This document shows positions 27,324 through 52,631 of a stretch of DNA of 64,000 nt, one piece after another. Below the pieces are notes generated by a model. That model had not been told where the DNA came from and did no database searches. It saw only the letters and a program-made list of their open reading frames with translations. The DNA is from a virus. Positions within the stretch are counted from its first letter, which is position 1; each line of letters begins with the position of its first letter. The position numbers and the translations under genes are program-made. The stretch is from IMG/VR virus record IMGVR_UViG_3300027801_000011, positions 51,310-115,309 of that record. One strand, given 5' to 3'.

Positions 27324-27326
27324 ATA
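27319..27326 (+). promoter_or_regulatory. late promoter CATAAATA
   Basis: CATAAATA contains the fibre gene stop codon (27321-27323). ATAAGGAG follows, 9 nt before the TTG start at 27347. Confidence 0.75.
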
Positions 27327-27346
27327 ATGTATAAGGAGATTATCCA

Positions 27347-28300: not shown

Positions 28301-28303
28301 ATA
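28296..28303 (+). promoter_or_regulatory. late promoter CATAAATA
   Basis: CATAAATA contains the preceding stop codon (28298-28300); GATAGGAGATAATA precedes the ATG at 28321. Confidence 0.75.
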
Positions 28304-28320
28304 AAGGATAGGAGATAATA

Positions 28321-28896
28321 ATGGCTGATAACGACTATAAACCGATTGCCGGTGAACCTTTCCCTTTTTGTGGTAGGATCGTAGAGGCATACTATACGAA
28401 TCCAGAATTGGATACGGTAGCTGTTCTGTGGCATGATACAGGCGATTCAGCTGAAACACAAACATTGCGAGAGTATTACATTGCAGTTGATGAGGAAAAT
28501 GAACAATTTCAGTATCTACTGAAGGAATTTAGTTATGACTCTATTGATGAGTGTACACGTGATCGCAATGAAGCAACCAGAACAGAATTTAGAGATGCTT
28601 TTCATAGGTATGCTACAGAGAATAATTTATATGGTCATGGGGATGATGGAACCAATCGGGCGCCTGAACCAGAAGCAATGGTAGCGCCGGCAGAAGAAAC
28701 TATGCCATCTGTAGATATTATGTTTGAGTATGATGAAGAAGATGAAGTCCAAAAAGAATCTTTGTTTAAAATGAAACTAAAAATGTTCGAACAGGACGTA
28801 ATCCAAAAAAGCAAAGCAAAGGTTAAAAAAGCTGCAATCCGTAAAGCAAAAACTCCATTGGAGGCTCTAGTAGCATATTCCGCTTTTATCAAATAG
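28321..28896 (+). CDS. acidic protein of unknown function
   Basis: A 191-residue protein in three parts: a beta-rich N-terminal domain (GEPFPFCGRIVEAYYTNPEL, DTVAVLWHDTG), an acidic low-complexity linker (about 105-145), and a lysine-rich helical tail (residues 150-185). No family was recognised, although similar acidic proteins follow fibre genes in marine T4-like phages. It has its own late promoter and is the last gene before the sigma70-driven accessory island, so it probably belongs with the virion genes. Confidence 0.68.
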   Translation: MADNDYKPIAGEPFPFCGRIVEAYYTNPELDTVAVLWHDTGDSAETQTLREYYIAVDEENEQFQYLLKEFSYDSIDECTRDRNEATRTEFRDAFHRYATENNLYGHGDDGTNRAPEPEAMVAPAEETMPSVDIMFEYDEEDEVQKESLFKMKLKMFEQDVIQKSKAKVKKAAIRKAKTPLEALVAYSAFIK

Positions 28897-28900
28897 GTAC

Positions 28901-28929
28901 TTGACTTTAATTATAACTTGTGATATGAT
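28901..28929 (+). promoter_or_regulatory. sigma70-type promoter of the accessory island
   Basis: TTGACT (28901-28906), a 17-bp spacer and TATGAT (28924-28929), in the same GTACTTGAC context as early promoters P2 and P3. It starts transcription near 28936, just before the carbamoyltransferase gene. It is the only strong host-type promoter seen in the island. Confidence 0.8.
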
Positions 28930-28952
28930 GTTCTTATTTGTGGGAGTAGGTG

Positions 28953-30290
28953 ATGAATATACTAGGGATATCTGAGGGATTTCATGATGCAAGCGTGTGT
29001 TTAATCAGAGGTCACACTATTGTACATGCTTCCCATGCTGAGAGATACAGCGGAGTCAAAAACGACAAATGGGTACATCCTTCCCAATGGCCTGTTTCAG
29101 ATCGCAATCAACCAGACATAGTTGCATACTATGAGAAACCTTTTCGTAAAAACCTAAGACGTTTGTATGCTGGACAATCCTGGCAAACCCCCAGAGTTAA
29201 TTATGACTTTAATTACGGACACCATGAATCTCATGCGGCCGCTGGGTATTATACGTCACCCTTCAATGAATGTAATATTCTAGTTATCGATGCTATCGGT
29301 GAATGGGATACTATTTCTATATGGAAGGCAAAAGATGATAAGATGACTAAGTTGCAGTCATGGAAATATCCGTATTCTCTTGGCCTCCTCTATTCTGCAA
29401 TCACCCAACGTATAGGACTAAAACCCAACGAAGATGAATATATCACGATGGGGATGTCTGCTTATGGAGAACCCAAGTATAATTTAGAAGATCAACTGTG
29501 GGAGAACAATCATAAGGGATGTGGAGACATATACCCAAAAGCCACCTCAGAAGACCTGGCAGCATCCGTTCAGCTGCTCTATGAGAGGGAGTTACTTAAA
29601 CTTGTGGACTTATGTCCCAGTGAAAATCTAGTAATTATGGGAGGGTGTGCTTTAAATTGTGCAGCTAATTCTAAGATAAAAGGAAAGAATATCTGGATCA
29701 TGCCCGCCCCTGGCGATGCTGGTTCTGCTATTGGGGCAGCGGCCTTAGTTCTAAAGACAAAACTAAAGTGGCGAAATCCTTATCTTGGTTATCCTATAAT
29801 GCAAGGTTTACATTTGAACGAAATAATAGAAACATTAGAAACAAATAAGATTGTTGGTATTGCAAATGGTAGGGCAGAGTTTGGGCCCAGGGCATTAGGT
29901 AATCGATCTCTTCTTGCTGATCCACGATATGATATAAAGGATACTGTGAATAAGATCAAACGCAGACAGTTGTTTCGTCCTTTCGCACCAGCAATTCTGG
30001 AAGAGTATGCAGACGAATACTTTGAGGGCCCTATGAATGAGTACATGCAATTTGTCGCAAAAGCAAAGCATGACTATAGTTCTGTTACTCATGTTGATGG
30101 CACTGCCAGAGTGCAAGTAGTGAAGAAAAATTGTGGTTCACAAATAAGACAAATATTAGAGGTGTGGTATGAAAAGACAGGATGTCCTATGTTACTCAAT
30201 ACCTCTTTAAATATTAAAGGCAAACCTATGGTTAATACGTGGGAAGACGCCCAACAATGGAGTAAGTTATATAATGTCCCTGTTTTCTAA
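28953..30290 (+). CDS. NodU/TobZ-family carbamoyltransferase
   Basis: A 445-residue protein with both domains of O-carbamoyltransferases. The N-terminal Kae1-like domain starts ILGISEGFHDASVCLI, carries HHESHAAAGYY (90-100) that binds carbamoyl-adenylate and metal, and GGCALNC (230-236). The C-terminal domain carries GPRALGNRS (311-319) and FRPFAP (341-346). The family transfers carbamoyl from carbamoyl phosphate, with ATP, to hydroxyls of sugars or antibiotics. It is shorter than bacterial relatives (about 550-600) but no core motif is missing. ATG 28953 follows GGGAGTAGGTG. The last 17 nt overlap the SGNH gene. Its acceptor here is unknown; a glycan made by neighbouring glycosyltransferases is a reasonable guess. 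Confidence 0.9.
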   Translation: MNILGISEGFHDASVCLIRGHTIVHASHAERYSGVKNDKWVHPSQWPVSDRNQPDIVAYYEKPFRKNLRRLYAGQSWQTPRVNYDFNYGHHESHAAAGYYTSPFNECNILVIDAIGEWDTISIWKAKDDKMTKLQSWKYPYSLGLLYSAITQRIGLKPNEDEYITMGMSAYGEPKYNLEDQLWENNHKGCGDIYPKATSEDLAASVQLLYERELLKLVDLCPSENLVIMGGCALNCAANSKIKGKNIWIMPAPGDAGSAIGAAALVLKTKLKWRNPYLGYPIMQGLHLNEIIETLETNKIVGIANGRAEFGPRALGNRSLLADPRYDIKDTVNKIKRRQLFRPFAPAILEEYADEYFEGPMNEYMQFVAKAKHDYSSVTHVDGTARVQVVKKNCGSQIRQILEVWYEKTGCPMLLNTSLNIKGKPMVNTWEDAQQWSKLYNVPVF

Positions 30291-31080
30291 ACGCAAGAAG
30301 TTAATTATAGGTGGTTGTTCCTACACAGACAACTATGCAGAAAAACAAAAGATGCCAGAGTTTCCTATATGGGGAGAAGTTCTAGCTGATAAGTTGGATA
30401 TGGATTTGATTAATCTAGCATCGTGTGGTTATAGTAATAAAGCAATTTATCACACTCTTACAGAATCTATGCTAACCAATAAGAACGTAGGTCTAGTTGT
30501 TTCTATGTGGAGTGAATGGCAGAGGTTTGGAGCCTATGTAGATGTGAGCACGAAAATGTTAAACAGACACCCGTGGAGATGCTTTCTACCAGAAAGAACT
30601 GTTAAGGACGCTGAATGGCACGATCAATTTTATACGAATGGAACTATCAATCCAAAGAAGCAAGGACTAAAATACGATATAAGTAAAGCAATTATTGCAA
30701 AGGGACTTGACTCTATTAAAGCCGGCACGGTTGAAACCTTGGGTTATATGTATGCTTTTCAAAACGCATGTGAACAAGAGGGAGTAGACTACTTACAAAT
30801 ACAGGGATGTCAACCTCTGATGAGCAAATCAGAACCAATGAATGGTATGCAGTATAGAGAATTGTGCAATCATATTATTGAAAGTCCCTACATCGAAAGA
30901 ATGAGTAGTGCCTTTATGGGTTGGCCGATTGATGAACGAATTGGTGGTTATAGTATCGACAACAAATTAAAAGACGAACACAGGTTCAGTCCAGAAGATA
31001 CACACCCGAATGAAGAAGGCCACCTATTAATGGCAGAAAGGATATTTGAAGAATATGAAAAAATATATACTGAAACTTAA
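30274..31080 (+). CDS. SGNH/GDSL-like hydrolase or acyl-transferase A
   Basis: A 268-residue protein with an SGNH fold pattern. Block I is IIGGCSYTDN with nucleophile Ser16, followed by INLASCGYSNKAI with block II Gly and block III Asn. A C-terminal EDTHPNEEGH (241-250) supplies the catalytic Asp/His. It has a family-specific VVSMWSEWQRF segment and a MGWPIDERIGGYSID segment, both shared with the gene at 31225. SGNH enzymes deacylate or acylate glycans and lipids. There is no signal peptide, so it is cytosolic. It overlaps the carbamoyltransferase gene by 17 nt and is part of a continuous operon. Confidence 0.78.
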   Translation: MSLFSKRKKLIIGGCSYTDNYAEKQKMPEFPIWGEVLADKLDMDLINLASCGYSNKAIYHTLTESMLTNKNVGLVVSMWSEWQRFGAYVDVSTKMLNRHPWRCFLPERTVKDAEWHDQFYTNGTINPKKQGLKYDISKAIIAKGLDSIKAGTVETLGYMYAFQNACEQEGVDYLQIQGCQPLMSKSEPMNGMQYRELCNHIIESPYIERMSSAFMGWPIDERIGGYSIDNKLKDEHRFSPEDTHPNEEGHLLMAERIFEEYEKIYTET

Positions 31081-31228
31081 ACTATTCTTATCTGGATTTA
31101 AAAGGCAGAATAATAAAGAAGAAGCTGGATTCATATATGAATTTGATGATAAGAGATTTAAAGACCTTACACAAGAAGAACAGGGGATACAGGTTCAGAA
31201 AAACTGGAACAGGTATATGAAGAAATGA
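31055..31228 (+). CDS. small lysine-rich protein, unknown function
   Basis: A 57-residue protein. The N-terminal helix is basic (MKKYILKLKLFLSGFKRQ), followed by an acidic part and a C-terminal RYMKK. There is no recognised domain; the N-terminus could associate with membranes. The start overlaps the end of the first SGNH gene and its stop overlaps the next ATG (ATGA at 31225). This is typical of real co-translated genes and is the main support for it. Confidence 0.5.
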   Translation: MKKYILKLKLFLSGFKRQNNKEEAGFIYEFDDKRFKDLTQEEQGIQVQKNWNRYMKK

Positions 31229-31950
31229 AATTAGTAGCAATAGGAGATAGTTATACTATTAATGGTTCATGGCCAGACCTGTTAGCTGAAAAACTTGATA
31301 TGGAATGTATTAACTTTGGAGGCGATGGATCAGGCAATCAATTTATCATATCTAAAGTGTTAGATACTTTATTGCTTGAAGATGTTGGGTTGGTTGTTGT
31401 TCAATGGAGCGAATGGCAAAGGTTAGATTTCGAACATCACCCTAAGAGAAATAAGGGCTGGACTTCATTACACCCACATAGAGACAACTCTAGAGTAGAA
31501 AAATATCCCATGAGTTTAGAAGGAAGATGGACTATGATGGAGTATAGTAATTTTGTAGCATCTACTATGCTTTCCCTTAGACTCTTTGTCATTGCTCAGA
31601 AACTATTAAAAGATATTCCTCACCTTATGATGCAAGGGCCATATCCCCTAATTCAACCACAATATGACATGGGTAGAGCCGAGAGTTATAAATGGAACTA
31701 TAGTGAGGAAATGAAAAAGGTGTATTCAAACTGCTTAGATCATCAGCTAATGAATCAGATAGAAGAGGACACGTTTATCGGTTGGCCAATAATTGGAATG
31801 GGTGGATATAGTATGGACGGACTACTTGACGAAAATGATAGTACGAGACAAAAATACAGACAGGGCAACAACAACAGCACCCCCAATGATGCTGGAAATG
31901 AGATGATTTCGAAGGATATATATAAAGTATATAAGAAGGTTTATGGATGA
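31225..31950 (+). CDS. SGNH-like paralogue B lacking the catalytic His
   Basis: A 241-residue protein. LVAIGDSYTING gives the GDS block with Ser9, INFGGDGSGNQFI gives blocks II/III, and VVVQWSEWQRL plus IGWPIIGMGGYSMD mark it as a close paralogue of the protein encoded at 30274. The C-terminal block reads STPNDAGNEM where the paralogue has DTHPNEEGH, so the catalytic His (and Asp) are replaced. It may be inactive, have a different mechanism, or act as a binding partner of the active copy. It is the first member of a tight run of ATGA-type overlaps with its neighbours. Confidence 0.75.
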   Translation: MKLVAIGDSYTINGSWPDLLAEKLDMECINFGGDGSGNQFIISKVLDTLLLEDVGLVVVQWSEWQRLDFEHHPKRNKGWTSLHPHRDNSRVEKYPMSLEGRWTMMEYSNFVASTMLSLRLFVIAQKLLKDIPHLMMQGPYPLIQPQYDMGRAESYKWNYSEEMKKVYSNCLDHQLMNQIEEDTFIGWPIIGMGGYSMDGLLDENDSTRQKYRQGNNNSTPNDAGNEMISKDIYKVYKKVYG

Positions 31951-32699
31951 ATACAATATTATGCGTAAGGTGGGGTGACAAGTATGATCATACCTATGTT
32001 GAAAAACTAAAGGAACAGTGCGAACAAAATTGCTCTGTTCCATTTAACTTCTACTGTCTCACAGACAAACCAACTAAGCCATATGATATAAAACTTCCAA
32101 CTGAGTTGGATGAGTACTACTTAGAGGATCGTGGATTCTTTTGGGCGTATAGGAAGTATTATGCATTTGCATTGGCTGGTGATGATAATAAACTAAACGT
32201 AAAACATTTTTCTAGAATTAAGGGCGACAAATTCTTGCTGTTAGACCTTGATGTTATCATACACCAAGACCTTAAATATTTCTTTGATCTTCCTATGGAC
32301 AAGCCTTGGATGGTACGTGGATGGTGGAATAACATAGATACAGTTAAACAAAACTTTGCTAAACACAAATCTACGCCTCTTAACTCTTCCGTGATACGAT
32401 GGGATCGTGGGCAATTAGAAAGTGTCTATAAGAAAATCAAAACAAATGCTGAAGTAATCTTCTTTACATACCCCAGTGCCGATAACTATTTTAATCATCA
32501 CTGGTATAACTGTTGGGATGAAGACAAGGGATTCTTTAAAGCTTTCCCCAAAGGTGACGTATACTCTTGGTATAAGGGTAATGTATATCCTCATGATATG
32601 GCACCAAAGAAAATAAGAGAAGATCATAAAATATGTCTATTCAATAACTCTGGATATGATGAAGGCGACAACGATGATGAGATAAAGGAACTATGGTGA
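31947..32699 (+). CDS. GT-A glycosyltransferase-like protein A
   Basis: A 250-residue protein beginning MNTILCVRWGDKYDHTYVEK. A DLD motif follows beta-strands at residues 98-104 (LLDLDVII); this is the metal/nucleotide-sugar binding DxD of GT-A enzymes such as GT8. A YCLTD strand precedes it and an RGWW acceptor-side segment follows. It is paralogous to the protein encoded at 36836 (shared R-x-GDKY start, DxD, and GWW). It probably transfers a sugar from a nucleotide donor in the cytosol. The acceptor is unknown. It overlaps both neighbours by a few bases. Confidence 0.72.
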   Translation: MNTILCVRWGDKYDHTYVEKLKEQCEQNCSVPFNFYCLTDKPTKPYDIKLPTELDEYYLEDRGFFWAYRKYYAFALAGDDNKLNVKHFSRIKGDKFLLLDLDVIIHQDLKYFFDLPMDKPWMVRGWWNNIDTVKQNFAKHKSTPLNSSVIRWDRGQLESVYKKIKTNAEVIFFTYPSADNYFNHHWYNCWDEDKGFFKAFPKGDVYSWYKGNVYPHDMAPKKIREDHKICLFNNSGYDEGDNDDEIKELW

Positions 32700-33343
32700 A
32701 TTATATAAAGTACACGCCTGAACTGGCAAACGATTGGAAACAAGCAGCTGCAGATGTTAAGAAAGATTACCCCCATCAGTTCAGACGCACTTTAGACGCT
32801 AGTACGGAATCTCAATTAAAAAGTAAACTATGGCTCGTTAACACCTTAAAAGAATTGGCGATGGATTCGTTGATACCAGACAACCCCCGTGTTGCTTTGG
32901 TAGGTGGCTGGTTTGCGAACTACCTAACACCTTTATTGTTTGATGTAATGTATGCTAAACAGGTATTCAATTATGAGATTGATAATGATGCAAAAGAAAT
33001 AAGCTACAAATACAATAAGAGATATAAGGATTCAGATAAATATCAATGTTCTGTTAAAGACGTTATGATGAAGTCTTTAGGAGACAACTATGATATTATT
33101 ATTAATTGTTCATGTGAACACATGTTTCCCATGACAAAATTCTATGAATGGAATCCAGACTTGCCTGATCCAGTGTATGTCTTACAATCCACAGATGAAG
33201 ACTGCTTTGATGATCATATCAATTGTGTGAGCTCCCCCGAAGAGTTAGCAAAACAAAACAGAATAACAGAAGTGTTATATTCGGGAACGAAGAAGTTACC
33301 TAACGGAATGAACCGTTTTATGGTTATAGGATATCCTTCATGA
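32693..33343 (+). CDS. SAM-dependent methyltransferase-like protein
   Basis: A 216-residue protein with a class I methyltransferase pattern. RVALVGGWFANYL (66-78) resembles motif I (V-x-GGxxG-like), followed by NYEIDNDAKEI (93-103) with acidic motif II, DVMM (123-126), and YDIIINCSCEHM (133-144) as motif IV. Motif I is not perfectly canonical, so activity is uncertain. The target could be a sugar or small molecule. It overlaps the glycosyltransferase gene by 7 nt (ATGGTGA) and the next gene by 4 nt. Confidence 0.68.
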   Translation: MVNYIKYTPELANDWKQAAADVKKDYPHQFRRTLDASTESQLKSKLWLVNTLKELAMDSLIPDNPRVALVGGWFANYLTPLLFDVMYAKQVFNYEIDNDAKEISYKYNKRYKDSDKYQCSVKDVMMKSLGDNYDIIINCSCEHMFPMTKFYEWNPDLPDPVYVLQSTDEDCFDDHINCVSSPEELAKQNRITEVLYSGTKKLPNGMNRFMVIGYPS

Positions 33344-34032
33344 CAATTGTCGAGTGGTGCAGAGAGAATGATGTTTGGTATCTTAAAATGGATATAGAGA
33401 TACCAGAAGTATGCATTAAAGAAGCACAAGCAGTATACGATGAAGGGTTCTTTGTAGATCACAGATATGGAGATGGAGATGGTTGGCGTTCTGCTGCAAT
33501 ACATAGCTTCGTCCACGAAGACGCAAAAGATACCAGCATGGGTTGGCATCATACTAAAAACCCAGATGGCCATGGCTTACACGAAAGCAAAGTTAAATGG
33601 GGGTGGACTGAAATTGCAGAAACTGCTCCAGAGACTAAGAGGTGGTTAGAAGACTTTCCACACAAGTCTTATAGACGTTTACGTTTCATGTTATTGGAAC
33701 CACAGGGACGTATAGTAGCCCACAACGATTCTAATAAAAAAAGAGATGACGAAGGAAGAACTAGAAACATTGCTGGTGCAATAAACCTTGCGTTCTACCA
33801 ACCAAAAAATTGTTATCTGAGAAGGGTAGATACTAAAGAAGAGTTGCCCTTTCAAAACTGTACAGGGTTTTGGTTCGACAATGGTGTACACCACGAAGCA
33901 TATAACGCCTCTGAAGAAAATAGATTTCACTTTATTATGCATGGTGGATTTAATTCAGAGCGTAAAGAACTTATGAAGAGGTCGCTTGCAAAGCAATTTG
34001 GCAACGATGTTCTGAAGGAAATTGATGAGTAA
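33340..34032 (+). CDS. Asp/Asn beta-hydroxylase-like 2OG oxygenase
   Basis: A 230-residue protein. YRRLRFMLLEPQGRIVAHND carries HxD at His128-Asp130, followed by INLAFYQPKNC and the distal FDNGVHHEAYN (His184/185) and ENRFHFIMHGGF with the 2OG-binding Arg195. This order is that of the aspartyl/asparaginyl beta-hydroxylase family. The N-terminal 110 residues, including a His-rich GMGWHHTKN-type loop, are not assigned. It is the fourth 2OG oxygenase in the window and unrelated in detail to the three at 2.1-4.0 kb. It may hydroxylate a peptide or a small metabolite made by the island. Confidence 0.78.
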   Translation: MTIVEWCRENDVWYLKMDIEIPEVCIKEAQAVYDEGFFVDHRYGDGDGWRSAAIHSFVHEDAKDTSMGWHHTKNPDGHGLHESKVKWGWTEIAETAPETKRWLEDFPHKSYRRLRFMLLEPQGRIVAHNDSNKKRDDEGRTRNIAGAINLAFYQPKNCYLRRVDTKEELPFQNCTGFWFDNGVHHEAYNASEENRFHFIMHGGFNSERKELMKRSLAKQFGNDVLKEIDE

Positions 34033-35278
34033 GCTTAAAGACTTGGAGTGGTTCTGTCCTCAGCCGTTCATGAACACTGTGATGAATCACGATCTTATTC
34101 CAAAGGCATGTTGTGTGCTAAAGCAGTGGCCTGGAAATGAAATACGTGAAACTGGTAAGACATCTATTATGGAAGTTCATAATTCAGATTTTATGAAAGA
34201 TTTCCGTAAAGAATTCTTAAACGGTGGCGGGCCAATATCTGATAAATTGTGCATGGTCTGTAAGGAACAAGAAAAACATTCCTCCACAGAAAGTCATCGA
34301 CTAACGTATCTAGATAAGTTTGATGAAGAACATGGAGAGTATAGAGAACATCTAGAGGCTCTTGAGGAGTACATTGATACAGACCAAAGCGATTCTATGT
34401 ATTTGACGTTTGAATATAATGCTCCTAATAACTTCTGCAACCTCAAATGTAACATGTGTTCCCCCATGAATTCATCTACATACGCCAAAGAGAATAAAGC
34501 AATAGGTGTTTCTAATGGAGCTCTAAGGGATGAGACTTGGATCAATCTTGAAGATGATATGTCAAGATATGAGGATGTGCTTAAAAACCTTATAGAATTG
34601 AAACTAGTTGGTGGTGAGACACTTGCTCTTCCTCAAAACTATGCGATGATGGATAAAGCAATAGAGATGGGCGTGTCTAAACAAATGAGACTTGTTATGA
34701 CTACAAATGCAACGCTGACTCCGAAGATGGGTAAGCATGGCGATGTGTTTGATTATGTCCCATACTTTAAAGATTGTCAAATGAATATCTCTATAGAATT
34801 TTGGGGAGAGAAGAATAACTATCTACGGTTCCCATCTAAATGGGAAAAGATTATGAAGAATGTTAAAAAGTTTGCTAAGATGCCCAGAACTAGGATACTA
34901 TTTGCTACCTGTGTTAGTTCTCTAACGATAGGATATCTACACGAAGTAGCTATAGCTGTTGATGCTCTGATAGAAAAAGAACCACACATTTACAATAGTT
35001 TTGCAACTGGCAGTTTGGTTATTGGTGGAACCAACTTATATACTGTAACAGCAATCCCAGAGGGAATTAGAGAAGAGTATCTTGAGACAATTTATAGTCG
35101 TGCTCCCCGAAACCATGCTCCCACATTCTTGAAACTGGCCAACTATCTAACAGAGATGCCTTTTGATCAAGACCTACATAATAGAATGATGATTGACGTA
35201 GCTAAGCGTGATAAATTTCGAGGAACCGTGTTGACAGATTTGTTCCCAGAGTGGAAACCATATTATGAAAAACTTTGA
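34025..35278 (+). CDS. radical SAM protein with N-terminal SPASM-like cysteine domain
   Basis: A 417-residue protein. The radical SAM motif CNLKCNMC (Cys138, Cys142, Cys145) binds the 4Fe-4S cluster that cleaves SAM. It is preceded by a cysteine domain: FCPQPF (Cys11), KACC (Cys29/30), and LCMVCKEQE (Cys76/79). This layout is found in phage and bacterial twitch-type radical SAM proteins. ELKLVGGETL (about 193-202) is the conserved GGE SAM-binding strand. Reactions range from peptide crosslinking to sugar modification; the substrate is unknown. ATG 34025 is preferred to the adjacent TTG. It overlaps the hydroxylase gene by 8 nt and the next gene by 14 nt. Confidence 0.85.
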   Translation: MSKLKDLEWFCPQPFMNTVMNHDLIPKACCVLKQWPGNEIRETGKTSIMEVHNSDFMKDFRKEFLNGGGPISDKLCMVCKEQEKHSSTESHRLTYLDKFDEEHGEYREHLEALEEYIDTDQSDSMYLTFEYNAPNNFCNLKCNMCSPMNSSTYAKENKAIGVSNGALRDETWINLEDDMSRYEDVLKNLIELKLVGGETLALPQNYAMMDKAIEMGVSKQMRLVMTTNATLTPKMGKHGDVFDYVPYFKDCQMNISIEFWGEKNNYLRFPSKWEKIMKNVKKFAKMPRTRILFATCVSSLTIGYLHEVAIAVDALIEKEPHIYNSFATGSLVIGGTNLYTVTAIPEGIREEYLETIYSRAPRNHAPTFLKLANYLTEMPFDQDLHNRMMIDVAKRDKFRGTVLTDLFPEWKPYYEKL

Positions 35279-36839
35279 TGAGTTTGGCAATGTAATAGTT
35301 GGGCGGGACGTAATGCCCTTCCGGCATCACGCCCTTGAACTATCAATTGTAGAACCATTTTTGGCATTTAAAGCTCTGTGGGAAAAAGAAACCAAAGACA
35401 TCAAAAATAAAAAAGAGTTAGAACACTTATTATTTGTAGTTGTATATCCAGACAAGTTGAAGTGGGCGTTTCATATTGAGAAACAACTACAAACAACTAC
35501 AATACAAACCTCAGGCGGTGTCACTGGCGCTGGTACTGGTCACAATCAAATATTGTGTCTAGAGAGTGAACTCCATAATACCCTACAAAACTCTAAAGCC
35601 TCCCATGCGATGATAGTAACGGTGGGTATGGTCTTTAATATGACTAAAGTAAATACTTCTATAACAAGATTTTATGAATTTGCAGAGACAGACGTATACG
35701 CTAGAGGTCATATTATAGCCCGCCCAGAAGATAAGGCATATCTACATCATCAACATATAGAGATAAACTTAAACCAGTGGAAAGGTTTAGGATCACCTAA
35801 AGTATATGAGAGGTGGCCTGTGTTTGAAAGATCAGAAGAAAACTTTCATGATGATTATACTCCACATTGGATTCTGCCTAAAGATCGCCCATTGATTAAT
35901 AACTTTACAGACGAAGAACGAAAAAATAAACATTTTGCATATCATATGGCGAACAGAAAAGATATACAGGAAATAAATTGGAGAGCGATGACACCACAGT
36001 TGCCAGACTATTGGTGGAAAAGTGCCGCAACTTTTAAGCATACACCTAAAGGAAGAGGGTTCTATGGTTGGCGTCAAAGGGTGGATAGGAGTGATCCTTA
36101 TTTTGATATCTTGATGAACAGGATGACTGAGGTTTTTTACGCTGAAAATACTGAAGAAGTTGGCCAACTCCCAACTGATAAATTTGATTTAATTATTACA
36201 CCAACAGCTGGTTATAGTGGAGAAGTGTTTGCTGAAAAACTAGATTTCGATGGAGAAATTATATTCTATGATTATTGTCATGAAAATGTTGAGATCAAAA
36301 AATCGATTGTTGATATGAATATGAGTCTTGATGAGATATCTATTTTGAAAAAGTATTGGAGTAAGGGCGTGGGTAATCGCAAAAATGGTAAAACTAGAAC
36401 CCATATGATTACGTTTAATTCCAATCAACTTTCTAATGGCAAGGAACTTAAAAAACGATCTGAGACTTTTGGAACTTGGGAAGAACTACAAGCCCTACAA
36501 GGTAAAATGTCTGATAACTATAAAGTTGATTTTTGGTTGATGGATTTGGTGTGTATGTCTGATCCCGATTGGTATCGGCCGACCAATATTTACTCAGATC
36601 ACTCCGACATACACAACAAATCGGGATATACAACAACTGAGAATTTTATAGATAAGATAAAGGGGAAGCGTGTGTTTATGGATTGTAGTAATATTTTCGG
36701 ATATCATATAGTACATGCTTGTTGGTCTTTATCTCAACTAGTTGAAAGTTATGAAAGACTTGTTAAACTGCTACAAGAGAACACCGAATATTTCTACTTA
36801 AAGGGAACTCGGCCCGGCAAACAGAAAATAAGAATATGA
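35265..36839 (+). CDS. large protein of unknown function in the island
   Basis: A 524-residue protein. The N-terminal half has GGVTGAGTGHNQILCLESEL and a predicted beta-rich stretch RFYEFAETDVYARGHIIARP with HHQHIEINLNQW. The second half begins with a Rossmann-like pattern (FDLIITPTAGYSGEVFAEKL, GEIIFYDYCHENVEIKKSIV) and ends with helices and a VFMDCSNIFGYH segment. It could be a two-domain transferase, but no motif is decisive. It is codon-biased like its neighbours and overlaps the flanking genes by 14 nt and 4 nt, so it is a genuine member of the operon. Confidence 0.65.
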   Translation: MKNFDEFGNVIVGRDVMPFRHHALELSIVEPFLAFKALWEKETKDIKNKKELEHLLFVVVYPDKLKWAFHIEKQLQTTTIQTSGGVTGAGTGHNQILCLESELHNTLQNSKASHAMIVTVGMVFNMTKVNTSITRFYEFAETDVYARGHIIARPEDKAYLHHQHIEINLNQWKGLGSPKVYERWPVFERSEENFHDDYTPHWILPKDRPLINNFTDEERKNKHFAYHMANRKDIQEINWRAMTPQLPDYWWKSAATFKHTPKGRGFYGWRQRVDRSDPYFDILMNRMTEVFYAENTEEVGQLPTDKFDLIITPTAGYSGEVFAEKLDFDGEIIFYDYCHENVEIKKSIVDMNMSLDEISILKKYWSKGVGNRKNGKTRTHMITFNSNQLSNGKELKKRSETFGTWEELQALQGKMSDNYKVDFWLMDLVCMSDPDWYRPTNIYSDHSDIHNKSGYTTTENFIDKIKGKRVFMDCSNIFGYHIVHACWSLSQLVESYERLVKLLQENTEYFYLKGTRPGKQKIRI

Positions 36840-37540
36840 AGATATTAGCATTAAGAATTGGTGATAAGTATGGCCCAGAGTATGAAGACTATTTGAATAA
36901 AAAACTATCCAAATATGACATACATTGGATGCATGAGCCGTATGATGAAAGAGTTACCTTACAGTGGAATAAGATGTGGGGTATGCAGTTGGATCAAAAT
37001 GAGCCTATTTGTGTCATGGACATAGATGTTCTTCTCATGGGCGACTACGAAAGAATATTTGACTATCCTATTATGCGTGGACAATTCCTTGCAATGCCTG
37101 GCTGGTGGAGAGACACAAAGAAAGAAGGTTACTCTATCAACGGTGGATTCTTTAAGTACTATCCGAAGGACTGTAAGTATATCTACGATAAGTTTATGAA
37201 AGATATACACGGGTGGCAGAGACACTACATTGATAATGGGGTTACAAAAGGCCCTGTTAATGGAGAGCAGTACTTTGTCGAAGACTCAGTATTACAAAAA
37301 TTAGAACTTATCACATTACCCAAAGAATGGTTTACTCGCTGGGTTGTAGACTCCGATATTGTAGGTAGGAGTATGACTACATGGCAAGTACAGATCACAC
37401 GTAAGTATCGGGAGATAACAGGGAACGACTATATATTCCTTGGTGGTGAGTTTCATCCAGATATCAAATTCGTACACTTCACACACAGAAATAACAAGCC
37501 TCATGAATGGGAATACTATGAACAAATTCGTTTACGTTAG
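36836..37540 (+). CDS. GT-A glycosyltransferase-like protein B
   Basis: A 234-residue paralogue of the protein encoded at 31947. The start MKILALRIGDKYGPEYEDYL matches its paralogue, and the DxD is CVMDIDVLLMGD (DID 62-64). MPGWW follows, then GEQYFVEDSV and a final FVHFTHRNNKPHEW resembling the metal-binding H-x-x-x of GT8-type enzymes. All expected GT-A elements are present, so it is probably active. It overlaps the previous gene by 4 nt and the following PP-loop gene by 23 nt. Confidence 0.74.
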   Translation: MKILALRIGDKYGPEYEDYLNKKLSKYDIHWMHEPYDERVTLQWNKMWGMQLDQNEPICVMDIDVLLMGDYERIFDYPIMRGQFLAMPGWWRDTKKEGYSINGGFFKYYPKDCKYIYDKFMKDIHGWQRHYIDNGVTKGPVNGEQYFVEDSVLQKLELITLPKEWFTRWVVDSDIVGRSMTTWQVQITRKYREITGNDYIFLGGEFHPDIKFVHFTHRNNKPHEWEYYEQIRLR

Positions 37541-38681
37541 TCATGAGTTTCGTACTCTATATCAGAGTATGTACTTCAAGAATACTCAGAAGGTCTGGGA
37601 TACTTCTTGGGTAGATGAAGACTTTAAAGAACAACTTGAATTTAAACTTCAAGAAGAACAACATATGCTTAGAAAATACACAAGGCCTCATACTGCATAC
37701 CTTAATGATATAGAAGGTGAGACTGAGCTTGTATTCAACATGAGTATGAAACATTTTGGTGAGCCCCAGAAATATGAATGGACTGCTGATCTGACAGAGA
37801 AATTTACAGACCTTCTTATGGAAAAAGCGATATCTATTAGAGACAAGGGTAGAAAAATTCAAGTATTATATTCTGGAGGAATTGACAGTTCTGCAGCACT
37901 ACTTGCTTTATATGAGGTTTGTCCTAAAGATCAGATTGAAGTTGTCATGGGAAGAACTGGCGAAGGTGGTGCTGGTTTTAGAGCTAAAGATCAGACTGAT
38001 CCTGTAAAGCAAAATCCTTGGATGTTTGATAATATTGTAAAACATTTGGATCACACATTCACTGATGATTTAAATGGTTACTGTGATCCTAGCAAATATG
38101 TGTTTGTCACAGGCAATGAAGCAGATCGTTTATTCGGGTCTACTGGTTATACTCTAATGACTCAATACTCTAAACCAGATGGTGCTGATTACCAAGAACA
38201 TTGGGGAAAGGCTCCAACTGATGAACTTGATGAAAATTGGCAATGGAACCAAAACAGGTGGTGGGGTATAACTAGGTACACATATCTTATGCAATCTTTT
38301 CGTATGATGGCAAACATTTCATGTGATAAGATTGATATGGACAACTACCAGCCCATGTTCTTTGATAGAAAGATGTTACAATTTGCTATCAATCTACATA
38401 TCCAAAAGAAACATAAGTGGTACAACTGTGGAGCCTTAGCAGATGAGAAGAAATTTAGAGATGGAAAGATGTGGATACGTGACGCTATATTTGATATAAC
38501 TAAAAATAGTTGGGTATCATATAACATGCATAAGACTATTTCATCTGCAACTGATCTTAATAAAAGGCAGTCTGTTCCTCTGCCATTGCGCTTGAAGGTG
38601 TTAGCAATAACAGAAGATGGTACAGTTGTTAATAGAAAAAATTTAATGGAATATGTCTGTAGGGAGTCTTTTACGATATGA
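37518..38681 (+). CDS. PP-loop ATP-pyrophosphatase (asparagine-synthase-like) A
   Basis: A 387-residue protein. VLYSGGIDSSAALLAL (PP-loop SGGIDSS at 119-125) binds ATP pyrophosphate as in asparagine synthetase and other N-type ATP-pyrophosphatases. FVTGNEADRLFG (about 195-206) is the second conserved active-site segment (GxxADxLFG) of asparagine-synthase-like proteins. No glutaminase domain is present, so ammonia must come from elsewhere. The N-terminal 115 residues are family-specific (KVWDTSWVDE). The start at 37518 is set by alignment with the next gene (MNKFVYVS versus MKKFCYVS), not by the longer open frame. Amidation of a carboxylate is the likely chemistry. Confidence 0.85.
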   Translation: MNKFVYVSHEFRTLYQSMYFKNTQKVWDTSWVDEDFKEQLEFKLQEEQHMLRKYTRPHTAYLNDIEGETELVFNMSMKHFGEPQKYEWTADLTEKFTDLLMEKAISIRDKGRKIQVLYSGGIDSSAALLALYEVCPKDQIEVVMGRTGEGGAGFRAKDQTDPVKQNPWMFDNIVKHLDHTFTDDLNGYCDPSKYVFVTGNEADRLFGSTGYTLMTQYSKPDGADYQEHWGKAPTDELDENWQWNQNRWWGITRYTYLMQSFRMMANISCDKIDMDNYQPMFFDRKMLQFAINLHIQKKHKWYNCGALADEKKFRDGKMWIRDAIFDITKNSWVSYNMHKTISSATDLNKRQSVPLPLRLKVLAITEDGTVVNRKNLMEYVCRESFTI

Positions 38682-39823
38682 AAAAATTCTGCTATGTAAG
38701 TAATGATTTCAAAAATGCTTGGAGAATATTTTTTGCCAATAAGAAGATGTTATGGGATACCTCTTGGGTAGACGAATCTGTTTTGAAGAGATTCTTTGAA
38801 CTTTATAATAAAGAGAATTCTGATCTGAAGAAGTACTCTCGCCCAGCTAACTGGTATCTTAATGACCTAGAACAAAAGGATACTTATTTGTTTCCTATGG
38901 CACAATCACATTTTAACGGTGCTGGCCAGAAGTATGAATATACAGAGGGGTTGCCTTCTCTTAAAGATATCTTATTAGAGAGAGCCGCTGATATAAGGGA
39001 TCAAGGAAAACCTATTGAAATATTGTATTCTGGTGGGATAGATAGTTCAGCTGTAGTTCTTGCTTTTAATGAAGTATGTCCCAAAGATCAGCTGAAGATT
39101 TGGATGGCAGGAGATCATTGCATTACCAACAACAAAAATCTTTTTGATAAAATTGTTAGTAATTTGGAATGGGAAATGACAACAAATCTAAATGGTTGTT
39201 GTGACCCTAGTAAAAATGTATTCACATCTGGTAATGAAGCAGATAGATTGTTTGGTGCTGATGGTTACACTCAAATGATGGGACACTCAAAACGAGATGA
39301 GAATAGTAAGAACGGATATAAGATACTAGGGCCAAATGAACCACCCACTACAGATCATCCAGACAACTGGCAGTGGAACCAAGACCGATGGTGGGGTATT
39401 ACTAGTCACACATATCTAACACAGTCTTGGAGAATGTTACGTAATGTTGAATGTGATAAAATAGTTATGGATAATTTCCAGCCTTTGTTTTTTGATAAAA
39501 GAATATTACAGTATGCTATAAACATCCATATGGATGGAGAAATGAAGTGGTACAACTCTGGTCTATTGGCTGACCCTCAGAGATACAAAGAGGGCAAGAT
39601 TTGGGTAAGAAATTTTGTTTATGAAATGTCGGGCGATAAAGAATATTCTTATAATATCGGTAAGACATTAACTACTGTATCAGATATAAATGAAATGTTT
39701 AAGTTACCACTGGCTCCAGACTTTAATGTTCTTGGTGTTATGGACGATGGTACTGTTGTAAATAGAGACAATATGATGGAATATATGACCAAAGAACACA
39801 CATTGTTCTCTAATGCTATATAA
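38678..39823 (+). CDS. PP-loop ATP-pyrophosphatase (asparagine-synthase-like) B
   Basis: A 381-residue tandem paralogue of the preceding gene, overlapping it by 4 nt (ATGA). ILYSGGIDSSAVVLAF carries SGGIDSS at 118-124; FTSGNEADRLFGADGY is the second site; WQWNQDRWWGIT and DNFQPLFFD are shared with copy A. Both active-site segments are intact, so both copies are probably functional, perhaps with different acceptors or as a heteromer. The end of the gene (39819-39823) lies in a double TATAAATA late promoter for the next gene. Confidence 0.85.
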   Translation: MKKFCYVSNDFKNAWRIFFANKKMLWDTSWVDESVLKRFFELYNKENSDLKKYSRPANWYLNDLEQKDTYLFPMAQSHFNGAGQKYEYTEGLPSLKDILLERAADIRDQGKPIEILYSGGIDSSAVVLAFNEVCPKDQLKIWMAGDHCITNNKNLFDKIVSNLEWEMTTNLNGCCDPSKNVFTSGNEADRLFGADGYTQMMGHSKRDENSKNGYKILGPNEPPTTDHPDNWQWNQDRWWGITSHTYLTQSWRMLRNVECDKIVMDNFQPLFFDKRILQYAINIHMDGEMKWYNSGLLADPQRYKEGKIWVRNFVYEMSGDKEYSYNIGKTLTTVSDINEMFKLPLAPDFNVLGVMDDGTVVNRDNMMEYMTKEHTLFSNAI

Positions 39824-39832
39824 ATATAAATA
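39819..39832 (+). promoter_or_regulatory. overlapping double late promoter
   Basis: TATAAATA occurs twice in an overlapping array (39819-39826 and 39825-39832), the first containing the preceding stop codon. GAGGAG follows before the ATG at 39852. Late transcription therefore resumes inside the island. Confidence 0.8.
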
Positions 39833-39851
39833 GAACAAGAGGAGATTAATA

Positions 39852-40196
39852 ATGGCTTTTACATTAACTACAACGTCTGTCGCAGTTAGAGATGACACAA
39901 GCACACCGTGGTTCCATGAAGTTGATAATGATGCAAGGACTGCCTTTTTAGCTTGGCGTGATACAAATTATATCGACACCAATAAAACTTCTGCATGGTC
40001 GGCTACTGAATCTGCTGATGAGACAACTCTTACTTCTGTACGACAATTTGTAGACAGGGATGGGATAAATGCATGGTTAGCGGAATCCAATGTAAAAACT
40101 CAGATGGCTGCTCGAAAAGTGTATGAAGATGCAAACGGAATTACTAGAACAGGCACAAGGATGCTTTTAGGCAGTTACCTTGCTTTCTCTGGTTAG
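39852..40196 (+). CDS. small late protein sharing a module with the adjacent kinase-like protein
   Basis: A 114-residue protein. The C-terminal half (SVRQFVDRDGINAWLAESNV ... AARKVYEDANGI) matches by eye the last 60 residues of the kinase-like protein encoded convergently next to it (SRTIFKDKSANIDYLEDPVI ... LLSQYNKEQGI). The N-terminal half is Thr-rich. The double late promoter suggests it is made in quantity late, perhaps as a virion component. The family is not recognised. Its stop is 1 nt from the stop of the opposite gene. Confidence 0.68.
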   Translation: MAFTLTTTSVAVRDDTSTPWFHEVDNDARTAFLAWRDTNYIDTNKTSAWSATESADETTLTSVRQFVDRDGINAWLAESNVKTQMAARKVYEDANGITRTGTRMLLGSYLAFSG

Positions 40197-40197
40197 T

Positions 40198-41106
40198 TTA
40201 TTCAACAAATGATTCTATACCTTGTTCTTTATTATACTGAGACAGCAATTCTCTTCGTGCCACAATCACTGGGTCTTCTAGATAATCAATGTTGGCTGAC
40301 TTGTCTTTAAATATAGTACGAGACGTTTTTGACAATCCATCCTTAGACATCATCGTATTGGTTGTAATCATTTTGCCAGTATCTCTATATGTTTCCATAA
40401 TATGTGCTTTGTGATCTTCTGATTGCTCTGACCATTCTACATCAACACTTGGTCTAGTCTGGATCAGTATAGTCATATAACCTTTTACTTGAGCGTCAGT
40501 CATTTTCATTCGTTCAAATTTCTGTATAGCATCTGGTTCATCGTGACGCAGAAGGCCTCGCTCCTCTCGTATTCTAATAGAGTTAGCAATAGAAACTCTG
40601 TTCAATACTTCAACAACATCAATATCAATTTTCCAAGGGACATGCTTGTGGTAGTGAGTGAGCAATTCTTCTAGTCCATTCCAACCAATCCAACGGTGAA
40701 CCATTCTAAATTCCCAGTGAGGATTACATTTGGATTTTGCTTCCCAATCTATTAGTCCAGTAAGATTTCCCTGCTCATCTACAAAAATATTCTGTCTCCA
40801 CAAGTCTCCATGAATTATACACCGTTCTTCACCCAAAGGCCCTTTTAGTTCTGCTAAGTCAAACAAAGCATCTTCTATATATTCGTCTTTAGTTGCCATC
40901 GGCATTAAAGACTTTATTACAGAGTGCATTTGGTGTGGACGGATACCTTTGACTCTGAGATTGGTACTGTGTAATTCTCCCAACAAATTTCCAAGTTGCT
41001 CGTTGAATTTACGACTAGGCATTATAGGCCCACCCTTACCATAAGTATGAGCGAGCTGTTCGCCTGGCACGTGCTGGCCCTTTATCATTTGATCTAAAGT
41101 AACCAT
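40198..41106 (-). CDS. aminoglycoside-phosphotransferase-like kinase without N-lobe
   Basis: A 302-residue protein. CIIHGDLWRQNIFVDEQGNL (HGD 99-101, Asn106) and GLIDWE (Asp120) are the catalytic loop and metal-binding DxD-like element of the APH/choline-kinase family, which phosphorylates small-molecule hydroxyls. Only about 40 residues precede the LGELH helix, where complete enzymes have an ATP-binding N-lobe of about 90; that lobe is missing. The last 60 residues form a module shared with the neighbouring small protein. It may use another donor or partner, or have lost kinase activity. It overlaps the sulfotransferase-like gene upstream by 13 nt. Confidence 0.78.
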   Translation of the reverse strand: MVTLDQMIKGQHVPGEQLAHTYGKGGPIMPSRKFNEQLGNLLGELHSTNLRVKGIRPHQMHSVIKSLMPMATKDEYIEDALFDLAELKGPLGEERCIIHGDLWRQNIFVDEQGNLTGLIDWEAKSKCNPHWEFRMVHRWIGWNGLEELLTHYHKHVPWKIDIDVVEVLNRVSIANSIRIREERGLLRHDEPDAIQKFERMKMTDAQVKGYMTILIQTRPSVDVEWSEQSEDHKAHIMETYRDTGKMITTNTMMSKDGLSKTSRTIFKDKSANIDYLEDPVIVARRELLSQYNKEQGIESFVE

Positions 41107-41777
41107 TCTTCTATCTCCTTGTAATTCGTAAATATTTCAGAATAATCTGGATAAGGTATTACTCCATCCTTATCTAATTCTTCATATGTAACAACAGTAT
41201 GCTCAAGTCTGGACATAAGCATGTTTGTGAATTCTTCTCTTGCCTTGTATTTATGCATCTGCTCGATTGAACCTGTAAAGGAATGTGGTTCTGGGGTTGT
41301 TCTCCATTCATAATTATACGTACAAAATTCTCTTGGAGCAGGATATCCAGGCATACTACAAAACATGGCCGTTTGTTCAAAACAAAAATGAGATACTTTA
41401 TCGTGTTGTTGAAACCAAATTAGAGTGAAATCTTTCAGTATTTTCTCAGCAATGTCAAGTCTCTTTTCTACAGGAAGCTTCCATTTCTTGGGGGTATTGG
41501 TTAATTGTAATGGCATACACTTAACAACATATGGTAGGGGGAAATTGTGGAGATGATTTAGACGCACACGCATTTCAATATCTGTTAACAAATCTTCATT
41601 AACATTCCAATTAATATCCACAGTCTTAGTTTTAAGCTCTGATTTTAGTTGGAGATTAACCATTTTGTTTCGGCCAAACCATTCATTACCATTTACTAGG
41701 TCTTTGTCTTTAGCAAACTGCTTAAGAAAATAGTAAGAACCAGAACGGGGAGTACAGACGATGCAATATTCACTCAC
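41094..41777 (-). CDS. sulfotransferase-like P-loop protein A
   Basis: A 227-residue protein. IVCTPRSGSYYFLKQF (residues 6-21) is the 5'-phosphosulfate-binding loop of sulfotransferases (consensus TPRSGSTYL). The rest is divergent, with helices and WFQQH at the position where a core strand is expected. The 3'-phosphate-binding motif is not obvious. It probably belongs to the PAPS-dependent sulfotransferase superfamily, acting on a carbohydrate or peptide. Genes for making PAPS are not in the window, so the host would supply it. Both ends overlap neighbouring genes on the same strand. Confidence 0.72.
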   Translation of the reverse strand: MSEYCIVCTPRSGSYYFLKQFAKDKDLVNGNEWFGRNKMVNLQLKSELKTKTVDINWNVNEDLLTDIEMRVRLNHLHNFPLPYVVKCMPLQLTNTPKKWKLPVEKRLDIAEKILKDFTLIWFQQHDKVSHFCFEQTAMFCSMPGYPAPREFCTYNYEWRTTPEPHSFTGSIEQMHKYKAREEFTNMLMSRLEHTVVTYEELDKDGVIPYPDYSEIFTNYKEIEEWLL

Positions 41778-42376
41778 TCAAACCACCCTTTAATCTCTTC
41801 AATATTTTCAAATTTCTTTTCATAGTCTATGCCCATCTTAATTGTTAACACAGTTTGCACAGTGTTATCAACCTCTAATCCATACTGCTCTTGTAGATGA
41901 GCAAGAGTACTTAAAGGATCATCTAGAAAATTCTCAAACGCTACTAGAGCTCCTTCATTGTGAGTATAATAGAAATCCCAGAACTGTTCTAGCTTAGTCA
42001 TAAACCTATCATATTCTTCTTTGGTAGCTATGAGACTATTATCTTTAATCTCTGGCCTCTCAGATGCGTAATGAATGTGGTTGACTTTTGTTCGTAAACG
42101 TGTTATATGACTCAAAAATTGTGATAGTACGTCTTTTCTATACAACCAGATACAGGGAAATCCACTAATCATTTCCCCGAAGTGTTGATCTTCTGGTAGG
42201 TAGTGGGGAAGGATTTTAAGAAGGTGTGGTTGTGTTGCCCAGTTCTGCTCATCTATATCTTTATAGTCATTCTTCTTTAGCCATGAGGCAGGGTCATATA
42301 GTCCGAAGGTGTTGCAAAGGAACCTACGGAAATACGTGCTACCACTCCTAGACGTTGCAATTAACCCTATTCTCAT
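41774..42376 (-). CDS. sulfotransferase-like P-loop protein B
   Basis: A 200-residue protein beginning MRIGLIATSRSGSTYFRRFL; the TSRSGSTYF loop (8-16) is close to the sulfotransferase 5'-PSB consensus. A later strand CIWLYRKDVLSQFLSHITR (about 90-108) matches the LxRDP-x-xxxxS region that carries the 3'-phosphate-binding Arg and Ser. The open frame extends upstream, but the start at 42376 is chosen because the sulfotransferase loop normally lies within the first 15 residues and the longer form would overlap the divergent gene. It heads a leftward three-gene operon with A and the kinase-like gene. Confidence 0.75.
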   Translation of the reverse strand: MRIGLIATSRSGSTYFRRFLCNTFGLYDPASWLKKNDYKDIDEQNWATQPHLLKILPHYLPEDQHFGEMISGFPCIWLYRKDVLSQFLSHITRLRTKVNHIHYASERPEIKDNSLIATKEEYDRFMTKLEQFWDFYYTHNEGALVAFENFLDDPLSTLAHLQEQYGLEVDNTVQTVLTIKMGIDYEKKFENIEEIKGWFE

Positions 42377-42392
42377 GTACCTATATATAACT
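42377..42392. promoter_or_regulatory. 16-bp divergent intergenic region with TATATATA
   Basis: Only 16 bp separate the start codons of two divergent genes. They contain the palindromic TATATATA (42382-42389), which is related to the late motif and reads the same in both directions. No ribosome site fits for either gene. Confidence 0.45.
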
Positions 42393-42866
42393 ATGAAAGT
42401 TATTGAATCTACATTCGAGGAAGTGTTTCCTGTCTGGCGTGACAGACTGTGGCCCAATAGGATTAGTGCAATTGAACCTATGAGTAGTCTGTGCTGGAGG
42501 CAACCAAAAGATATAATAAAGGACAGTTCGATATTCGATAAGTATGTCCCCAGTTTCTTTGCTTTGAAGATAGATGATGAAATTGTTGGAGTGAATAGTG
42601 GATTTAAAACAAGTGAGAAAGTTTATCGTTCTAGAGGATTGTGGGTAAGTGAACAACATAGAGGTAGGGGATTTGGCCAACTTCTTTTGTTACAAGCAAT
42701 AGTTCAAGGTAAAAGCGAAGACTGTCATTGGATATGGAGTATGCCACGAAAAACCGCTTTGGGGTCTTACGAGAAGGTAGGATTCAAAAAAAGAGGTAAG
42801 TGGATAGACCAAAAGGTAGAATTTGGGCCCAATTGTCTGGCTACCCGCCAGATAATATATAAATAG
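42393..42866 (+). CDS. GNAT-family N-acetyltransferase
   Basis: A 157-residue protein with the GNAT acetyl-CoA-binding motif A: LWVSEQHRGRGFGQLLLLQA (Q/RxxGxG at 88-95). This is followed by IWSMPRKTALGSYEKVGFKK, which is motif B with the conserved YEKxGF. It transfers an acetyl or acyl group to an amine, on a sugar, peptide or small molecule. The start at 42393 is set by the divergent neighbour and by a standard GNAT N-terminus; a longer frame exists upstream. The last codons (TAT AAA TAG) overlap the late promoter of gp13. Confidence 0.85.
   Translation: MKVIESTFEEVFPVWRDRLWPNRISAIEPMSSLCWRQPKDIIKDSSIFDKYVPSFFALKIDDEIVGVNSGFKTSEKVYRSRGLWVSEQHRGRGFGQLLLLQAIVQGKSEDCHWIWSMPRKTALGSYEKVGFKKRGKWIDQKVEFGPNCLATRQIIYK
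42858..42865 (+). promoter_or_regulatory. T4-type late promoter for the neck operon
   Basis: A perfect TATAAATA overlaps the GNAT stop codon; GACAGGAG follows before the gp13 ATG at 42884. Confidence 0.85.
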
Positions 42867-52630: not shown

Positions 52631-52631
52631 A

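Follow-up and report, generated by a model that had tools for sequence, protein, structure and literature searches.

Host recognition clusters of pelagimyophages contain glycosyltransferases and radical S-adenosylmethionine (SAM) cassettes, and have been interpreted with reference to the host O-chain (Zaragoza-Solas et al., 2020; PMC7029224, available text). The stretch of 64,000 nucleotides analyzed here (the window; positions 51310–115309 of the 115,309-base virus record IMGVR_UViG_3300027801_000011, which may be incomplete) carries an island of enzyme genes in a variable region that extends from the presumed tail-fibre genes fib2-fib3-fibA to gp13 and combines glycosyltransferases with tail fibres, as in such clusters. 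The island resembles the clusters of pelagimyophages and cyanomyophages in its pre-neck fibre position, hypervariability, glycosyltransferases and radical SAM cassettes, and an Asp/Asn beta-hydroxylase is named among the pelagimyophage core proteins (PMC7029224, available text). The clusters were however described as non-syntenic, and the available text of that paper, supplements aside, reports neither a five-gene core nor a hydroxylase pair or fusion nor modular sub-cassettes. In the island, two glycosyltransferase-like genes (GT1 and GT2) enclose a methyltransferase-like gene (MT), an Asp/Asn-hydroxylase family gene (HYD) and a gene for a large protein (UNK). The fixed order GT1-MT-HYD-UNK-GT2 and the HYD-UNK pair appear to be undescribed in the open-licence literature, supplements aside.

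The source is placed as an uncultured T4-like marine myophage of the Kyanoviridae because its large terminase (TerL) is 69% identical to that of Methylophilales phage Melnitz and 68% to that of Pelagibacter phage HTVC008M. The host is not assignable, as phages of OM43 (Melnitz) and SAR11 (HTVC008M) are about equally near by TerL and the pelagimyophage marker CsgG had no match in the 115-kb record, which may be partial. In the Pelagibacter phage isolate Mosig EXVC030M (MT647606), an island at the same place, between a fib3 homologue and the neck, encodes two Asp_Arg_Hydrox proteins, a carbamoyltransferase, MoaA-like proteins, a methyltransferase and a GNAT. It differs in having no homologue (E ≤ 1e-5) of HYD, UNK, GT2 or the PP-loop protein PP2 of the window, and in carrying an ArnB-like aminotransferase, an epimerase and nitroreductases. 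The fibre-to-neck slot of HTVC008M (KC465899) is also filled with enzymes, but these include four annotated 2-oxoglutarate (2OG)/phytanoyl-CoA dioxygenases and a ferrochelatase. No AspH-family match was found in the whole record of either HTVC008M or Melnitz, the slots of which hold other oxygenases or nothing. Among isolates, no close relative of the island was found by DNA search, and no protein relative of UNK, HYD, PP2, GT2 or fibA. Relatives of its radical SAM protein (RSAM) among isolates and records are weak and come from two Vibrio phages and a single marine virus record. The jumbo-phage island of the Vibrio phages K566/K567 (L042) has three radical SAM genes with a weak relationship to RSAM.

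Slots of relatives were collected from IMG/VR with UNK, gp13, PP2 and GT2 as baits, and near-duplicates were dropped by gp13 (>98.5% nucleotide identity), which left 25 distinct slots that are complete from the fibre genes to gp13. Gene counts in these slots are detections against the proteins of the window, which divergent versions would escape. The order GT1-MT-HYD-UNK-GT2 was kept in 24 of the 25, with GT1, MT, UNK and GT2 each present in all 25 and HYD in 24. The remaining slot (L170) lacks HYD alone and has a short divergent 2OG-like open reading frame (ORF) elsewhere. Many slots were recovered with GT2 itself as bait, and the contigs seeded with gp13 serve as a cassette-independent check of this bias. 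Among those with at least 8 kb upstream, GT2 was found in 11/11, UNK in 10/11, MT and HYD in 9/11 each and GT1 in 7/11, some of the absences being due to contig ends; with at least 5 kb upstream, one of 16 (L121) shows no core gene. As the gp13 sample consists of the nearest 80 by gp13, the core is claimed for this clade and not for all T4-like phages. The PP2 bait returned near-identical copies only from viral contigs and the fibA bait five loci only, so that neither gave a further independent sample. With UNK as bait, 38 contigs were recovered from IMG/VR; HYD was present in all 38, usually adjacent, and in three phage contigs HYD and UNK form a single ORF of 703 residues.

The initial annotation had proposed that the enzymes of the island act in one joint pathway. 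For the five core genes independent scatter of homologues is refuted by the 25 complete slots, and the recurrence of the core in the same order in dozens of relatives suggests one joint chemical decoration. A single pathway for all 14 kb finds no support and was rejected, since the enzymes on either side of the core vary without regard to it. The median identity to the window is 78% for HYD, 78% for the carbamoyltransferase CT, 74% for gp15, 71% for gp13 and 71% for GT2, and lower for GT1 (65%), MT (48%) and UNK (40%). HYD and GT2 are thus conserved like virion genes, which suggests that their substrate is constant, while UNK and MT vary.

In the window the rightward genes CT, SG1, sm, SG2, GT1, MT, HYD, RSAM, UNK, GT2, PP1 and PP2 occupy 28953–39823. 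They are followed by o12, the leftward KIN-ST1-ST2 and a divergent GNAT, after which gp13 (PHROG 211) begins at 42884. The run of enzyme genes between the tail fibres and gp13 is therefore present where the initial annotation had placed it, with a refined start: 28901–28952 is intergenic and holds a promoter-like site, and the island proper begins with the ATG of CT at 28953. Four to 26 bases are shared at each of eleven consecutive rightward junctions, which points to an operon rather than to chance. The G+C content of the island (37.6%) differs slightly from that of its flanks (~39.3%). The features are as follows (window positions, strand):

27347..28300, +: fib3, presumed tail-fibre protein rich in Ser/Thr; most complete slots have relatives of it ahead of the core
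28321..28896, +: fibA, acidic presumed fibre-associated protein
28901..28929, +: sigma-70-like promoter, TTGACT-17-TATGAT with TG
28953..30290, +: CT, O-carbamoyltransferase of the NodU/TobZ type (PF16861, 1.5e-49; PF02543, 2.4e-41; phrog_1601, 1.5e-87)
30274..31080, +: SG1, SGNH/GDSL-like, carrying the motifs GCS and DTH
31055..31228, +: sm, small basic ORF recurring at the end of SGNH genes
31225..31950, +: SG2, SGNH-like protein without the catalytic Asp-His
31947..32699, +: GT1, DxD glycosyltransferase-like protein; core, 25/25 slots
32693..33343, +: MT, methyltransferase-like protein by motif, no profile match; core, 25/25 slots
33340..34032, +: HYD, Fe/2OG protein of the Asp/Asn-hydroxylase family; core, 24/25 slots
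34025..35278, +: RSAM, radical SAM protein with an N-terminal twitch domain; optional
35265..36839, +: UNK, predicted to combine a GT-A-like and a class I methyltransferase-like part; core, 25/25 slots
36836..37540, +: GT2, GT-A fold resembling GT8 structures; core, 25/25 slots
37518..38681, +: PP1, Asn-synthase-like PP-loop protein; optional
38678..39823, +: PP2, PP-loop protein with 46% identity to PP1; optional
39819..39832, +: pair of late-promoter-like TATAAATA sites ahead of o12
39852..40196, +: o12, protein of 114 aa, not a recognised enzyme
40198..41106, −: KIN, resembling the APH C-lobe, without N-lobe
41094..41777, −: ST1, sulfotransferase-like by motif
41774..42376, −: ST2, weak Sulfotransfer_3/Stf0 similarity
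42393..42866, +: GNAT acetyltransferase, divergent from ST2

Several of the initial labels agree with profile searches. Both the N- and the C-terminal domain of CT score above the curated profile cut-off, as does GNAT. HYD matches PF05118 with 35.5 bits (curated cut-off 22.6) and RSAM the N_Twi profile with 234 bits (cut-off 170), the latter also having a CxxxCxxC motif; the motif SGGIDS is present in both PP-loop proteins. In HYD the residues H128, D130, H185 and R195 are invariant in 15 relatives, and H128 and H185 (Fe-binding) as well as R195 (2OG-binding) align with human AspH. AspH is without the Asp ligand, unlike HYD, which has D130. Two more, shorter ORFs of the Asp/Asn-hydroxylase family lie in the record outside the window (G000 C1:22231-22566 and C1:44844-45116).

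Other labels hold in part. KIN scores above the cut-off of the APH profile but aligns to positions 92–212 of 239 only, starting at KIN residue 30; the ATP-binding N-lobe is absent, and as only the C-lobe part is matched the designation as a kinase is doubtful. For the two proteins called SGNH, SG1 has the nucleophile Ser and a C-terminal DxH, an assignment made by motif with a sub-threshold SGNH profile match, whereas SG2 retains the GDS motif and has STPN in place of the DTHPN of SG1, and so is without Asp-His. ST1 and ST2 both start with a PAPS-loop-like sequence, as expected of the sulfotransferases they had been likened to, but profile support is lacking (no relevant Pfam match for ST1, sub-threshold Pfam matches for ST2). 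MT was labelled methyltransferase-like, which its motif bears out and profiles do not.

The assignment of two GT-A glycosyltransferases is upheld by a DxD in both GT1 and GT2, which are related to each other (hhalign probability 96%), and for GT2 by structure prediction and fold search, the best matches being LARGE1, UGGT, LgtC and GlyE, with a DID at residue 62. As GT2 has no Pfam family match, the GT8 profile included, it is called GT8-like GT-A only. UNK, originally a large unknown, is now predicted to have a GT-A-like N-domain and a class I methyltransferase-like C-domain (mean predicted local distance difference test score, pLDDT, 84.5; predicted template-modelling score, pTM, 0.84). Its fold matches include N-methyltransferases, GlyE and human LH3, and in a viral structure library phage proteins without an assigned function come first, followed by many glycosyltransferases. 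The overall TM-scores are low, and the domain assignment therefore rests on local similarity and motif reading; an alignment of 30 sequences has an invariant region around N-[FY]-HDDYTP. No significant solved relative of UNK or GT1 was found by sequence, and no relationship between the GT1 and UNK profiles. The lysyl hydroxylase LH3, which is among the fold matches of both UNK and GT2, couples hydroxylation to GT-A glycosylation, as does the mimivirus collagen enzyme L230. The island differs from these in that HYD is AspH-type, that UNK is in part methyltransferase-like and lacks a conserved DxD, and that the overall likeness is weak (TMq ~0.19 for UNK).

Around the core the CT/SGNH, RSAM, PP-loop, sulfotransferase-trio and GNAT genes are interchangeable sub-cassettes. 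Of the 25 slots, 14 have a detected GNAT gene, 10 CT, 10 RSAM, 7 the KIN-ST1-ST2 trio and 6 PP-loop genes. Wherever CT was seen an SGNH gene comes next, except for a tandem CT pair in L184. KIN, ST1 and ST2 occur together in 7/7 complete slots that have any of the three; over all loci the full trio was found in 32, ST1 and ST2 only in 4 and ST2 alone in 6, several of these at contig ends. Further radical SAM genes and TRAP transporter genes are also inserted in the slots of relatives, with DctP or DctM genes inside the island slot of L131, L155 and L180. In the window itself TRAP-type genes lie around the terminase and encode a DctP solute-binding protein (46194–47138, +), a DctM membrane component (50392–51693, −) and a TAXI/NMT1-like binding protein (51686–52654, −). 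PP-loop genes related to PP2 are also found in a second slot, after gp15 and before the terminase genes (L045–L050 and others), and thus seem to move between slots. The sm family (MKKFIYRLRFFxSRFKK...FIYExDD) has long and short forms and lies at the 3′ end of SGNH genes in L127, L128, L183, L186 and others. Elsewhere in the window, a staphylococcal-nuclease-like gene (48341–48751) lies directly upstream of the large terminase gene. In many relatives (L057, L060, L062, L066 and others) gp14 matches in two pieces ~1 kb apart, which suggests an insertion in, or a lengthening of, gp14.

The match to the first island gene starts at most 20 bp from the fibA stop codon in 18 of 29 loci, and a few overlap fibA. 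The window has 12 copies of the T4-type late-promoter motif TATAAATA where 6.0 would be expected, and 12 was reached in 0/100 shuffles; sites precede fib2, o12 and gp13, and the interval from 24076 to 39818 is free of them. It is proposed that expression of the core would for the most part be an extension of that of the tail-fibre operon. The idea that a local sigma-70 promoter is general was rejected, as a near-consensus sigma-70-like site precedes the island in 2/29 loci only, the window and L127 (TTGACA-17-TATAAT). The neck and tail genes of L164 are distant (median identities of 48, 37 and 47% for gp13, gp14 and gp15, vs 72, 67 and 78% within the clade), whereas fib3 (55 vs 51%), MT (50 vs 52%), UNK (44 vs 49%), GT2 (67 vs 71%) and GT1 (57 vs 63%) are near clade values, and HYD (62 vs 74%) and fibA (34 vs 41%) somewhat below them. 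As fib3 and the core are near clade-typical despite the distant neck genes, they were probably transferred as a block in the L164 lineage, judged from a comparison of identities, not a tree test.

The reading favoured here, to which we assign a probability of roughly 0.4, is that the island is the enzyme part of a host recognition cluster, in which the core makes one hydroxylated and glycosylated decoration with the tail fibre as the likeliest acceptor. HYD would create a hydroxyl group, on which the GT-A enzymes (GT1, GT2 and possibly the N-domain of UNK) would build a short glycan from host sugar nucleotides, and MT and the C-domain of UNK would methylate or position this glycan. CT with SGNH proteins, RSAM, the PP-loop amidators, KIN-ST1-ST2 and GNAT would vary its end groups. 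The acceptor would most likely be the tail fibre of the phage itself, and the decoration would then tune or mask adhesion. We infer the order of reactions, the single-glycan product and the acceptor. A more specific version is rather unlikely, namely that of a transferable post-translational modification cassette in which HYD would hydroxylate fibre residues, UNK and two GT8-like transferases would extend them, and exchangeable enzymes for carbamoyl, sulfo, amide and acetyl groups would vary the ends. Decoration of virion proteins by phage-encoded glycosyltransferases is described for mycobacteriophages (Freeman et al., 2023, cited in PMC12619734); these glycans are on capsid and tail-tube subunits, and the available text of PMC12619734 mentions no hydroxylase-led five-gene core.

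The enzymes may instead act on the host surface, altering the lipopolysaccharide O-chain or capsule and thereby blocking superinfection or the sticking of released virions. This possibility, only slightly less likely in our view than fibre decoration, has been proposed for glycosyltransferase-rich islands at the same position (Zaragoza-Solas et al., 2020; PMC7029224, available text). The tailoring groups of the island are typical of polysaccharides, and the sigma-70-like promoter ahead of the island in two phages is in its favour. It is also favoured by the occurrence of HYD-UNK together with radical SAM genes on contigs of two Bacteriovoracales metagenome-assembled genomes (MAGs), one of the Halobacteriovoraceae (L193, 9030–12162) and one of the Bacteriovoracaceae (L194, 9644–11689), the pair being apparently fused in the latter. 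The L193 locus, which resembles a surface-glycan cluster, also encodes a carbamoyltransferase, a family-2 glycosyltransferase, a YdjC protein and a glutamine-amidotransferase (Asn-synthase-like) protein. The recurrence of these partners outside phages favours a glycan context. A locus assigned to a 'Flavobacteriales' MAG (L192) was rejected as bacterial; the contig belongs to a phage, as it carries gp13-gp14-gp15 along with the full core, and was probably mis-binned. In other phage contigs HYD-UNK lies near tail-fibre-like genes (L018 and L030). Large phage islands around MT-HYD-UNK that are unlike the T4-type slot (L014, L017, L020, L022, L024, L025 and similar) were also seen, and hold several radical SAM families and glycosyltransferase-like, SGNH, PP-loop and 2OG-like genes.

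Action on the host surface is less easily reconciled with the absence from the island of any clear membrane protein by hydropathy, and hence of an evident flippase or GtrA/B-like anchor. Most relatives have the cassette as an extension of the fibre operon, and late conversion would be of little use to a lytic phage. In L164, moreover, fib3 and the core, and not the neck genes, are near clade-typical. Two nucleotide-sugar families tested, NDP-sugar epimerase and nucleotidyltransferase, had no match in the 115-kb record; together with the want of a clear membrane protein in the island, this makes a complete O-antigen or capsule pathway unlikely.

Several observations weigh against fibre decoration. 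L164 is one single case. The extra sigma-70-like promoter of the window and L127 could allow expression before the virion proteins are made. UNK is without a conserved DxD, and the GT2 model has a pLDDT of 68 and is poor after residue 170. In other phages HYD-UNK also lies beside PhoH (L006) or peptidase/MoxR-like genes (L003) rather than fibres. The Bacteriovoracales loci, which are without virion genes, would fit a cell-surface glycan, and with HYD-UNK on bacterial chromosomes a protein of the virion is not the only conceivable acceptor. Gene position and operon continuity speak for the fibre, the bacterial loci and the interpretation in print for a surface glycan.

It is very unlikely that the hydroxylase, CT, the glycosyltransferases, the kinase-like protein and the PP-loop proteins act on bases of the phage DNA. 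T4-like phages do glycosylate hydroxymethylcytosine. Phage carbamoyltransferases of the same Pfam families as CT make 5-carbamoyloxymethylcytosine, but the clade that modifies DNA is found together with thymidylate synthase, and those carbamoyltransferases that lie near glycosyltransferases were in unmodified contigs (PMC8670742). HYD belongs to the Asp/Asn-hydroxylase family and not to TET/JBP, and the possibly incomplete record has no match to PF00303 (thymidylate synthase/dCMP hydroxymethylase) or PF00145 (cytosine methylase). A search of the record with the Tet_JBP profile was uninformative, as its controls were silent too.

Radical SAM, 2OG and Asn-synthase-like enzymes are common in the tailoring of ribosomally synthesized and post-translationally modified peptides (RiPPs). 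It is however most improbable that the radical SAM, hydroxylase, glycosyltransferase and PP-loop enzymes serve the maturation of a small peptide, for instance sm. The recurrence of sm near RSAM or SGNH genes would agree with such a role, but a radical SAM gene went undetected in 15 of the 25 slots, and the island encodes neither a transporter nor a protease. As a RiPP precursor sm finds no support, since it follows SGNH genes and has neither cysteine nor a leader/core pattern.

Marine T4-like phages are abundant and carry many glycan-type enzymes. Seen as a fixed five-gene core that extends the fibre operon and has a defined set of optional add-ons, the 'hypervariable island' becomes a small tractable system. 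Should the decoration be directed at the host, the published idea of serotype conversion would narrow to a defined minimal gene set. If the fibre is decorated, adhesins would be diversified by chemistry and not by sequence, and host range would become harder to predict from fibre sequence.

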